Below are positions 15,746-21,700 of a stretch of 64,000 nt of DNA, in pieces. Origin of the DNA: Cliona cf. orientalis. Its lineage: Eukaryota > Porifera > Demospongiae > Clionaida > Clionaidae. Made by a program: the position numbers and the translations under genes. Within the stretch, counting starts at the first letter, position 1. Every line of letters begins with the position of its first letter. The DNA lies in contig OZ005704.1 in assembly GCA_963930775.1 (NCBI GenBank), forward strand, positions 1,426,001-1,490,000, written 5' to 3'. The notes beneath the pieces were generated by a model. It searched no databases and was not told the origin of the DNA. It was given only the letters and a program-made list of their open reading frames with translations.

Positions 15746-18700
15746 TCAATGACTACCTTCCTCATCAAGTGAAAGCTTCAACTCCTGCTCATCTTCACCC
15801 TTCTTGAATGTAACTTGGGTGTAATCATTCTATTATTATTAAGTAGTACTAGCATTAATTGCACTGAACAAGTACTAAAACATAGAGAGCTAGTGGCTGA
15901 TCTAGCTATTCCACACTATAACCATGTTACAGTAGCGGCAAGAAAAAAATGGACAGACCTTCAACTTACATTGTCAGCTGCGACATAGGGACGTCGACCT
16001 TTGCTCTTGATTACCACAGCCTACATAATTATTATTATATGTTGATTATCATTAAAAATGGCTGGTATCTTAACAAAATCTAGTCTCATGCCCAGCGCCC
16101 TTTCTGCACGCGTGAAAGGGGGCTAGGCACGATTGCGAGACTAAACAAATTCATCTTTTCTCAAACATTTAATGAAGATGAATACAAAAGTATGTAGTTA
16201 GGGAAGAGTGCATTAGCACTGCTAGTGTAGCTACTCTTGGTACAGGTGTATTATATACATACACGTACATGCCCTGCGCTTTGCTTATTAGTACTATAAA
16301 GAATATTATATGCTGTACTCGATTATAATATACATAATATGTGCTACCACAATATCATACAGTTTTATCTTACCATGATCACAACAGACAGAGCAGCAAC
16401 AACGACCAGAGCTCCAACCACGATGATGACAATGCCCCATGTAGGGAAGCCAGCTGGAGAGTCGGAATCATCTGACCCATCGTCCACCTGGAAGTCTCCC
16501 GAAGGCTCTAGCACAGCTCGGTTGTAGCGAATCACAAGTGCATTGCTCTGGTACTGTGTGTGTGTGTATATGTGTGTGTGGTACATAATATTGAGAACTT
16601 ATCTGGCAAACTAGACTCTCCTCTCTTTCTTTGATCTGCCATGTGCTAGACTGGATAGGGGAATCCCCCAGAGTATGAGCTCACCATATCATCGATTAGT
16701 CCGATCTCTTTTATGCTAGGTTCATATTCTGGGTCCCAACTAGCCTCGTCCGCAGACTTCTTCCTTCAGAAGGCCTGGGGACGAGGCTAGGTCCCAACAA
16801 GCTTTCATGCACGCTAAACATTAAATTTTTGAAATCGCATTTTCATCATACTTACCTCATCAGTTGGCCGAATTCTTTTGATTGGGACTCAGGATATAAT
16901 TATACCAATACCGTAGTGGGCACTTAAAATTAATATAACTCGCAATTTTGGCCCGCATGGGCACTTACCCGGGATCAAAATTCCATACGTTTGTATAGAT
17001 TCTGAAGCTGCTAGCTACATTGTATTAACCCCTTGAAGTGTGGCCTAACCAGCTAATTACCCCGCGCGCATGCGCAAGGAGTAAAGTGATCGGTTGTGTC
17101 TGTTGTTAGCACAAAAATCGCCGGATCTGGAGATCTAGGCATCTGAGCGACTCGTAAGTACAGTGTATCCGTCGATATCGTCGAAAAACTGGCTTCATTA
17201 TGCTTCGAATCGTTTGGTAAGGTCCACAAGCATCGCAAATACTGCATTTTGGCATTTTGTTGGCCACGCCTATGGACACTACCCACCATGTGCTTTCTGC
17301 TCATGCGCACAACCTGGCACAATATGTAGGTAAAGGTCATCGACGCTGTGAAGGGGCTGGCACCCAGACTAGTGCTCTATAGAGCTCTAGTTGTTGTCGT
17401 CGTTGTCGTCGTGAGCACAAAAATCGCCATATCCCGAGATATAGACGTCTAAGCGACTCGTATTAAAGCATAACGAATCGATCGAATTCGACGAAAAACT
17501 GGCTTCAGTGTACGTCAAATCGATGGACACGGTCCATGGGCGTCACAAATAGTGCCTTTTTGTTAGCTAACGTAGCCACGCCTATCGACAGTGCCTACTC
17601 AATGCATAATGCATGCCTATTGTGTTGTCTGCTCATGCGCACAACTAAGTAGCCAAGAATAATATGTCTGGTAAAGATCGTCGAAAATTATATGTTCTTG
17701 AAATCTATACTCCATCCGAATCTGCAGCCCTGTGGAACCAAAATATAACGTAAGACAGCTATACTATTACAACAGACTATATATTGAACAACGTCAACGT
17801 ATCAGTTCATATCTCCTAGTAGTCTAGATATAGTACAGAGAGAGTGCTTTTGTCACCAGGACCTCCGGTAGCTACGTATGACATTGTACAATTAAGCAGC
17901 ATTTCCACTAATTTTCTGAAGTTCGCAAAATTATAGCCATGCACACAAAGTAATTCTATAGATTGCGCAATGTGCGTGCGGGGTATGTGCTCTACAGAGC
18001 TCTAGTTACAACTTGTATAATATTGTACTGAAATGATCGTGGCTACAAACGTGACCTTGCGAATCCTTTCATTCACTGTCAAATGTTTTGTAGCACATGA
18101 CTGATAGACATGTATAGAGAGCTAGAGTGGGGAGTTCCCCTGGGAAATCCCCGCTTATATTGTGCCCAACTATTCAAAAAGGAGCTATAGTCTCTATCAT
18201 GGCGTGTGCTTGTGGAAATCTGCCCTGCTTTGATTGCTACAGTAAGTAATTACACACCTATCTATACCTTGTACAAAACCAAGTCTACTATATACACATT
18301 ATGTAGTGCTGGCTATAATTAAATTGTTAATTATTATGCAGGTGACACTCTCATACCAATTCTTTTTGCACTCGCAAAGTTTCTGGGATACGAGATACAT
18401 AAGATAGTACAAAGTGCCTTGAAAGAAATATGGAAAGCTTTCCATGAATGGCTAAAAGAGAAATATGGAGGATGGAATGAAATTCTGAAGACAGCTTTTG
18501 ATAAGGGAGAGCAAGCGGCAATATCTGCTCTTAAAGCAGTCAAGGATGAGATTGTTAAAATATGTAAGGAGAATCACACGCTACTGGAACAATTGGCTAA
18601 GGTTTCAACCAAGATCTGCATTAGTTCTGTTGCTACAAAACAAGGTTTAAAGACAGCAGTTGACATAAGTGTTCAGCAGGGGACGAAACAAGCCACCACA

Positions 18701-21700
18701 CCAGCAATAAAACTAGCGGCAGCAAAGGCTATAGAATCTGGGACCACACAAGCCGCAACAAAATTGGTTGCCACAGAGACTGCCAAATCCGGAACCAAAG
18801 AAGCAGTAAAATTAGCAACAGCACAGGCTACCAAATCTGTCACTGCAGAAGTTGTCAAAGCTACCGCCATTAAAGCACCTACACAAACAGTCATACAAGC
18901 TACCAAGCTGACACCAGCAATGCCAGTGGCAAGCGCAGTGAGTGCTGGCACGGGCAGTGTGCTTAGTAGCATGGCCACTCCAATGAGCATTGTAACTGGT
19001 GCAGCACAAGTTGGGCTTGAAGCAGCTGGATACACAAATGTTGGAAAGACTGTTGGTGCTGCAGGCAGCATGACAGCAGGAGGGATAGTTGGATTAGCAG
19101 CTGGACCACCTGGAGTTGTTCTTGGAGCTGCCACAGGATTGGGTGTATGGATAGCGGGAGAGATTGTGGGTGGATTGGTGGACAGAGCCATTGGAGCTAG
19201 ATCTACAGGTACTACTAGCGACCCTGAGAGGAGCCAGTCTAGAGAAGGGAAAAACTCAGAAAGCACAAGCAGAGAAGATCAAAATCCAAGACAATGTAAA
19301 GAGGGAGAGAATGTAGATGAACGGGTGGACAGAGCCTTTCGAGCTAGATGTACTATTAGCGACCTTGAGAGGATCCAGTCTAGAGAAGGGAAAAGTTCAG
19401 AAAGCACAAGCAGAGAAGATCAAAATCAAAGACAACATAAAGGTATGATCATGCATTAGGTACTTGATGACTTCATTATAAGGTAAGATTACATGAGACC
19501 TCCTTACTCATCGAGAGTAATGTACTAGATTATTACTATCACAATAATATCGAAATACACAATAATAGATAGAACCTAGATACACAAAGAGTAACACTGG
19601 ACTGCCTAACTGGTCCTGGCAGCCATACACACGTGACTCCTCAGGAATGTCATTAGTGTCCTTACATTTATCATACAGGGTTCATGCATCATACCATTGT
19701 GGCTTAAATTATCAGCAATCAGATTGTAATACCAATGCTATAAGTAAATCTCACACTGTACATGTAGGTAAACCAAGTCTGAATGATGTTTTCAGGAAGC
19801 TACTGCCCCTTGCTGTACACTGGCATAACATTGGAATTCTCCTAGGAATCGAAGCTTACGTCCTTCAACGAATACAGCATGACAATAGCCACGGTTGCAG
19901 TGATTGTTTACGAGAAATGCTAAATGAATGGCTCAAGGCTGACCGTACGTGCACATGGATAAACTTAGCCGAAGCTATAGAGCCATTTCATCAAGCGAAA
20001 GCTGATGAAATAAGAAGGGAATATATTGAAGAATGACAATTACCCAGTTCAGTGGGATAATTAATGAGGTAAATCATATACTCAGATTTCATGTATAGGT
20101 ATAACATACATGTATATACACATTACCTCCTTTCCTAACACACGTTAAAATTATCATTGTACAAATTCATGCAATATCCCTCCATGATTTAACTGGTTAT
20201 GACTTACATCTTGCTGCATCTGTCCGACAAGGATTGTGACATCAGCACCAACTGATGTGTTCTCGGACTCGGTGATAGTTACTCCAATACTGATACCACC
20301 ATCTTGCGTTAACTATACAAAATTAATGTGTAATCACGCAATGTTATCTAGTGCATAACAGTCAGTACTAGCAAACCAGCTGCATGCATGCATATAATTG
20401 TACTTATCACATTTACCTCGATTTCACTGAGCTGGTCTTGAGTGAGCCCAAGTCTATCCTTGTAGCGGTTCAGGAGGGTCTTCATCACCTCTCTACAGCA
20501 AACAATCATATAAATTACACGATATGATATGACACAGTAAGATAATGTCATGACATTGATTGCTATACTATTACAGTGATGGTACAGACCGTTTGAGGTT
20601 TTCCTTGTGGTCATCTGTTGGAGTGAGTTGGTTCAAATTACCGTCAAATCCCATCACCACACGAGTCCTGCAGGGGCACAAGATCACATAATGTAACAAG
20701 GTGATTATCATGACAGTAAAGTGAACTTTAGTTAATAGTCTTACGGTGATTTTTGGGTGACTGCTCCAGTTGTAGCACACTTCTTCCTAGTGCAGTTCAG
20801 CTGTCCAGACAGACACATGCTACAGTATGCAATGAGTGAAATCTCAAGTCAACATCAAATTTTTTTCTGAAAATGACTTCGATCTTGCTTAGATTAAGCT
20901 AGTGCTATCTATGCCAGTCATAGGGCGTAGGGGTGCCTACCATGTAAAGCAGTCCTCATCCAGTGTCTGTCCATGGGGGATTTCCTTGTCCAGCACCATG
21001 CAGCTCACTAGAGAGACGAGAGGATGGATAGTCACAAAATGCAAGTAGATTTTTTTTTTTCGTTTTTACACTCTTACCTGGTGCACAAGCCTCTCGGGTA
21101 CATGCAGCCATTCCACTGCTTGAGCAGAAGCTAAAGAGATGTTAACATACACACTCACTAATACAATGTAGGTTCAAGCACCGTATTCAGGTATACCCTT
21201 TGTTGCATGTCTTACCATGTGTTGCATCCATCTTCAGCTGTGAATCTCTCTCCGTATTGGTAGGTAACACCATTCACAGAGCAGCCTATGATAATTACAA
21301 GATAGATATAATAATATATCCATGCATGATAGTGTACAAGTATATTATGTTAGTTTAATAGCTCCACAATAATTCTTCAAGGCACTCTGGCTCAAGACCT
21401 CCCCTGATCCATTCTCAGCTTTTTCAATATCAGGCACTTTTTACATTGAAATTTTGAGAATGGGTATGGGGACAAGGCTACATGTGTTACCTTACCTGGG
21501 CACTCTGGTTCTCCCCTTACTCCCTCAGTGACTGGTCTACCACTAGCGCTCTCCACGCACCAGCAGTAGCCAGTGGAGCCCCAGCACTGGACGGACGAGA
21601 ATGACCCATCATCTTCACACTGGGGGATGAAGGCGCCAATCCCCCCAGATTGCCCCCGGAGGGCGGGGCATAGGGGGGCCACCGTCATTCCGGCCATGCA

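Follow-up and report, generated by a model that had tools for sequence, protein, structure and literature searches.

A predicted gene of the sponge Cliona cf. orientalis that joins a glycine-zipper module to a Death domain

Early animals carry very large repertoires of Death-fold proteins, the outputs of which are, to our knowledge, mostly unknown. Excerpts of one study (PMC8195603) describe, in Amphimedon and other marine invertebrates, large lineage-specific sets of Death-like and TRADD-N proteins with variable partners; a new Death-domain pairing is therefore expected in kind, and a partner of the type described below is not mentioned in those excerpts. Executioners of the MLKL, HeLo and HELL type have a helical membrane-targeting module, which may be coupled to an assembly motif (excerpts of PMC12881547). 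C19orf12 and Nazo carry a glycine-zipper segment with the motif G-P-x-G that is thought to lie in membranes (excerpts of PMC4470416 and PMC10883546), and the membrane-spanning glycine zippers of human C19orf12 were described from in silico analysis (excerpts of PMC4470416). Searches of the open-licence literature found nothing that unites a death domain and a glycine zipper with sponges or with necroptosis.

The gene analyzed here lies in a window of 64,000 nucleotides (C16:1426001-1490000) of a genome searched as 216.8 Mb in 149 contigs. Its Death exon has a phase-1 boundary, like those of ZU5-Death proteins of the UNC5 and PIDD type, but where five of six paralogues scanned have a ZU5-like frame upstream it has a glycine-zipper module instead. 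Its second exon shares a G-P-x-G glycine-zipper segment with C19orf12 and Nazo, whereas the C19orf12 frame of the same genome (L052, 155 codons) has neither the Lys repeat nor the Death domain. The layout of a predicted helical module plus an assembly domain is shared with the MLKL, HeLo and HELL executioners, without a sequence match to them. A similar C-terminal G-P-x-G glycine-zipper end is found on three AIG1-type GTPases of the same genome (L043, L044, and L053), in which a GTPase replaces both the helical/repeat module and the Death domain; this likeness is likely convergent. The three GTPase frames sit on C4 at about 1.444-1.472 Mb, and the glycine-zipper end of L053 matches C19orf12 at E 2.2e-4, below the cut-off. 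A Death domain combined with an unnamed, well-conserved module suited to membranes makes this protein a concrete candidate for an output of the Death-fold repertoire.

Gene model, Death domain and splice phases

A gene model of 470 residues in three exons occupies positions 18199-20036 on the forward strand, with both introns reading GT...AG and a terminal TGA (Table 1). The splice from exon 2 to exon 3 is predicted, and an alternative last junction one base later gives an identical protein. Exon 1, whose ATG is preceded by an in-frame stop, is covered by no relative and is the weakest element of the model; that its cysteines are acylated would be a guess.

Table 1. Parts of the gene model (window positions) and of a second, fragmentary set of exon-2 pieces (positions on C10)
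Feature	Position	Strand	Basis
Exon 1, short Cys-rich start, residues 1-14 plus one base	18199..18241	+	gene model
Exon 2, helical/repeat/glycine-zipper module and charged linker, phase 1 to phase 1	18342..19442	+	model, relatives P0001-P0045
N-terminal helical domain, residues 16-105	18344..18613	+	alignment; all-helix in low-confidence models
Degenerate four-residue Lys repeat, residues 114-203	18638..18907	+	repeat-register analysis
Glycine-zipper segment, residues 228-299, G-P-P-G at 269-272	18980..19195	+	alignment
Linker, first copy of 102-nt duplication	19200..19301	+	sequence comparison
Linker, second copy of 102-nt duplication, 89% identical	19341..19442	+	sequence comparison
Exon 3, starting in phase 1, with Death domain and stop	19768..20036	+	Pfam, splice phase
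Death domain proper (PF00531), residues 386-456	19779..19991	+	Pfam, profile comparisons
C10 glycine-zipper end	near 3742100	-	genome search
C10 preceding piece	near 3751760	-	genome search
C10 N-terminal piece, with stops	near 3752050	+	genome search

The initial annotation had placed a death-fold domain at the C terminus, and profile searches bear this out: exon 3 alone matches Pfam Death (PF00531) at E 2.6e-5 with 24.7 bits, over the cut-off of 22.6, and the whole protein matches at E 6.2e-4 with 20.3 bits, under it. This Death domain belongs to a very large genomic set, as shown by the many matches obtained with exon 3 (150 of 742 candidates were scored, all at E ≤ 4e-5) and with the Pfam Death model (150 of 1292, all over the cut-off). 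The nine best nonself matches of exon 3 are 44-52% identical to it, and all 10 sequences match Death at E ≤ 1. A profile built from the ten gave modest scores in a PDB search, with Death domains of PIDD (E 0.0015), RIPK1 (0.0017), and FADD (0.029) matched and that of THOC1 also among the matches (the best of each of the four lying between E 0.0015 and 0.03). In a scan of six of the nine paralogue loci (all except L029, L036, and L037), five frames had a ZU5 match upstream of the Death domain, one above the Pfam cut-off and four below, and the upstream frame of L032 had none. For the window protein Pfam listed no ZU5 at E ≤ 10, so that it was not assigned to the ZU5-Death family.

Just before the Death domain, a phase-1 acceptor option is present in the window gene and in eight of its nine nearest paralogues; L035 has a phase-0 option besides, and L037 has a phase-0 option only. 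Since exon 2 runs from phase 1 to phase 1, its donor agreeing with the phase-1 acceptor of the Death exon, and since five of the six paralogue loci scanned have ZU5-like frames upstream, the joining of this module to a Death exon likely came about by exon shuffling. At the position of the exon-2 donor, P0001, P0003, and P0004 read K-G. Beyond it P0001 and P0004 diverge from the window, whereas P0003 still matches the window's intron; the latter match may be the intron of a close relative and is no proof of the donor. The proteins of 23 of 44 relatives run no more than two residues past a ...G at the end of the glycine-zipper segment (21 ending as G-E, one as G-K, and one as G-N), most of the 21 forming one close subgroup, and several relatives start with -YYTG- or -YYAG- ahead of the domain. 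These ends and starts resemble translated phase-1 splice sites and might be read as such, a suggestion drawn from protein sequence.

Searches of the genome with exon 2, P0011, P0010, and P0030 found one intact copy of exon 2. The matches besides the window gene were weak ones, two of them AIG1-type GTPase ends, and scattered pieces at C10:3742000-3752300 (L027 and L028), about 71% identical to P0007. The order and orientation of these pieces, which are partly inverted, suggest a second exon-2 module that has been broken up.

The exon-2 family

Protein searches, each of which scored only the roughly 8000 candidates sharing most words, returned 7, 11, and 41 overlapping matches, giving at least 45 proteins. 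One of these, P0002, is the window gene itself read from another start and was omitted from the alignment, which has 45 rows: the window's exon 2 and 44 metagenomic relatives, available as protein only, without species or gene structure. Judged by this alignment, exon 2 is a protein family of its own, in which about 90 residues of predicted helix are followed by a four-residue Lys/Arg repeat and then by a glycine-zipper segment split by G-P-x-G. W59 is kept in 40 of 40 rows, C89 in 43 of 43, and Q237 and E241 in all 45. The joined Death domain may be peculiar to the window gene, since the relatives are seen as proteins without downstream exons.

The statement that no described family could be named held up, as Pfam gave no match to exon 2 of the window gene at E ≤ 1. 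Over the 45 rows, 46 Pfam families match weakly, of which 25 are listed. C19orf12 matches eight rows (best E 0.19) and the glycine-zipper families YMGG and Omp match six (best E 0.061) and three (best E 0.095); the window's exon is not among the matches of either kind at E ≤ 1, and it was assigned to none of these families. Pfam matches to single members were taken as composition, the lowest E of any row (0.0036) belonging to an unrelated phage domain. The same was concluded for the ncbifam matches (best E 0.0011, well short of the cut-off) and the padloc matches (best E 2.9e-4, within the repeat), which are scattered over seven proteins. No relative with DNA context was found among the genome contigs, nor among viral contigs searched with the window's exon 2. 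When the viral contigs were searched with alignments, one locus was returned, an IMG/VR contig with a frame of 689 codons (L051:4707-6776) whose glycine-zipper stretch is 44% identical to that of exon 2 over the matched part. From its neighbours we read this frame as a phage virion-type protein, and the likeness, being short (69 residues), was taken as convergence and not as relationship.

The Ala/Thr/Lys helical repeats of the initial annotation are present but are better described as a four-residue Lys/Arg repeat, regular in relatives, that has decayed in this copy. Between the anchor Lys and the anchor Pro, 423 of 509 Lys/Arg residues in the 45 rows keep the four-residue register set by the anchor. 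The repeat has about 6 to 41 units. Stretch length varies from 25 to 152 residues, and among the 43 rows with both anchors it equals 1 modulo 4 in 29, 0 in eight, 3 in four, and 2 in two. The slots of the register are filled in 23 of 24 cases in P0008, 26 of 29 in P0009, 19 of 20 in P0011, 12 of 12 in P0030, and 16 of 17 in P0045; in these five, which differ in repeat number, almost every fourth residue is Lys or Arg across 45-113 residues. The window copy has lost the register, as have P0001 and P0003-P0006, its nearest kin. Lys/Arg counts by phase in the window are 4, 8, 1, and 0, equalled by 24 of 2000 shuffles, and the registers of the kin were equalled by 93 to 792 of 2000; the window's best repeat stretch scores 9 where shuffles reach 13, and the net charge of the region is +8. 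A Lys/Arg register of four that is kept in most relatives despite a several-fold change in repeat number is an unusual protein pattern.

Alpha-synuclein and perilipin also have repeats rich in Lys, Thr, Gly, Ala, and Val, but with a period of 11 residues against four in the exon-2 family. An 11-residue repeat was ruled out here, the Lys/Arg correlation at lag 11 being negative in five of five sequences. A straight amphipathic alpha-helix does not fit the four-residue period either. In each of the five sequences the moment was most prominent at 90 degrees, the smallest of the five per-residue angles compared; at 100 degrees the moments of P0008, P0009, and P0011 still rose above those of shuffles (z 3.9-4.3), and those of the window and P0006 did not clearly do so.

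The glycine zipper proposed for residues 249-296 stands on firm ground in the alignment. GxxxG begins at residues 249, 261, 265, 272, 276, and 287. Gly occupies positions 244, 249, 253, 256, 261, 269, and 272 in all 45 rows, position 265 in 44 of 45, positions 276, 287, and 291 in 44 of 44, position 280 in 43 of 45, and position 299 in 39 of 43. Among these 13 positions six pairs are spaced four apart, a number that random placement reached in 1622 of 100000 trials, and the conserved (G/A/S)xxxGxxxG agrees with the general definition of a glycine zipper. G-P-x-G is invariant, and both stretches flanking it are free of charged residues in 43 of 45 rows. Hydropathy is moderate: 19-residue Kyte-Doolittle (KD) means, taken in steps of five, reach 1.43, and the means over the 13- and 15-residue flanking stretches are 1.28 and 1.79, the usual transmembrane threshold being about 1.6.

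The predicted hairpin within the segment fared unevenly in AF2 models, all of low confidence. In that of exon 2 (11 sequences, mean pLDDT 37.5) two helices meet at G-P-P-G and break at G269, but in that of P0011 (45 sequences, mean pLDDT 49.7, about 65-75 over the segment) a single unbroken helix runs through it from 197 to 251; the remaining four of the five P0011 models averaged pLDDT 38-44. Searched against the PDB and a viral library, the P0011 model matched no fold at E ≤ 0.001. By analogy with the similar-looking G-P-x-G ends of AIG1-type GTPases and C19orf12, the proposed link to membranes is plausible, and the segment might insert in one; on the hairpin the two models disagree.

Candidate functions

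Membrane insertion, a hairpin, and a role in cell death are at most inferences from these features. The cell-death or immune effector of the initial annotation would be one such inference, and the findings fit an executioner and a membrane-tethered adaptor alike. The best reading, and the most economical in function, is tentatively that of a membrane-associated Death-domain adaptor, to which we give somewhat less than an even chance. Helices of the glycine-zipper segment would pack within a membrane or against it and could self-associate through their Gly faces; the cationic, Thr- and Ala-containing repeat would act as a spacer of tunable length lying along the acidic surface of the membrane; and the flexible linker would leave the Death domain cytosolic and able to enter assemblies of the PIDD, RIPK1, or FADD type. 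The protein would then bring a Death-domain signalling complex to the membrane or concentrate it there. Support for the adaptor comes from the Death domain, over its cut-off on exon 3, and its modest PDB Death matches, from twelve positions that hold Gly in 43 or more of 44-45 rows, from the matching phase-1 splice sites with K-G at the donor in P0001, P0003, and P0004, and from the look-alike G-P-x-G ends of AIG1-type GTPases and C19orf12. It is weakened by a splice to exon 3 that is a prediction, the moderate hydropathy, the disagreeing low-confidence AF2 models, the lack of a fold match for P0011 at E ≤ 0.001, and the chance that only this gene of the family carries a Death domain.

An assembly domain, a glycine zipper, and a cationic repeat, with helical predictions of low confidence, would also suit an executioner, in which clustering of the Death domain drives insertion of the zipper and permeabilizes the membrane, as MLKL, fungal HeLo/HELL proteins, and gasdermins do by other folds. 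Pfam includes models for families of the MLKL/HeLo/HELL type. At E ≤ 10 for the whole protein, and at E ≤ 1 for 11 exon-2 members, no MLKL, HeLo, gasdermin, Bcl-2, or ApoL family was listed, in searches whose HMMER filters drop weak matches; this result and the P0011 model, for which the fold search gave no match at E ≤ 0.001, argue against the executioner, which we regard as unlikely. Quite improbable is the further claim that it represents a new class of membrane-permeabilizing animal executioner, made of a single shuffled phase 1-1 exon with a cationic four-residue repeat and a glycine-zipper pore segment; if true, such a protein would be activated by a Death domain directly, without a kinase or protease step.

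The remaining readings part the module from the Death domain or from the membrane. Exon 2 might act alone, as a protein of membranes or lipid droplets that somewhat resembles C19orf12/Nazo, with the Death exon belonging to a separate or alternative product. Consistent with this, Death is not among the 25 Pfam families listed of the 46 matching the 45 rows weakly, about half of the relatives (23 of 44) end just after the segment, and the exon 2-exon 3 splice is a prediction; but phases, donor, and acceptor all agree, and G-E-stop and G-K-stop are also what GTGAGT and GTAAGT donors give when translated, so that those ends may be exon ends, and we judge the separation improbable. The strict Lys/Arg register of P0008, P0011, and P0030 (23/24, 19/20, and 12/12 slots) and the moderate hydropathy could instead point away from membranes, to a repeat whose ligand is a polyanion (a nucleic acid, the matrix, or a mineral surface) and a Gly segment that forms a soluble packing core. 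Against this stand the Gly/Ala/Val stretches on either side of G-P-x-G, uncharged in 43 of 45 rows, and a net charge of just +8 in the window's repeat region, which make a polyanion-binding protein very doubtful.

Other features of the window

Three frames on the reverse strand, within 34317-35509 and 47646-48086, match Pfam Cellulase (GH5) and are probably two genes; an adjoining frame at 48274-48762 looks alike. A 662-codon open frame on the forward strand (37913-39898) matches reverse transcriptase. Two forward frames of 163 codons, at 56587-57075 (with no Pfam match at E ≤ 0.001) and 60170-60658, are near-identical, one residue apart by eye, and constitute a recent local duplication.
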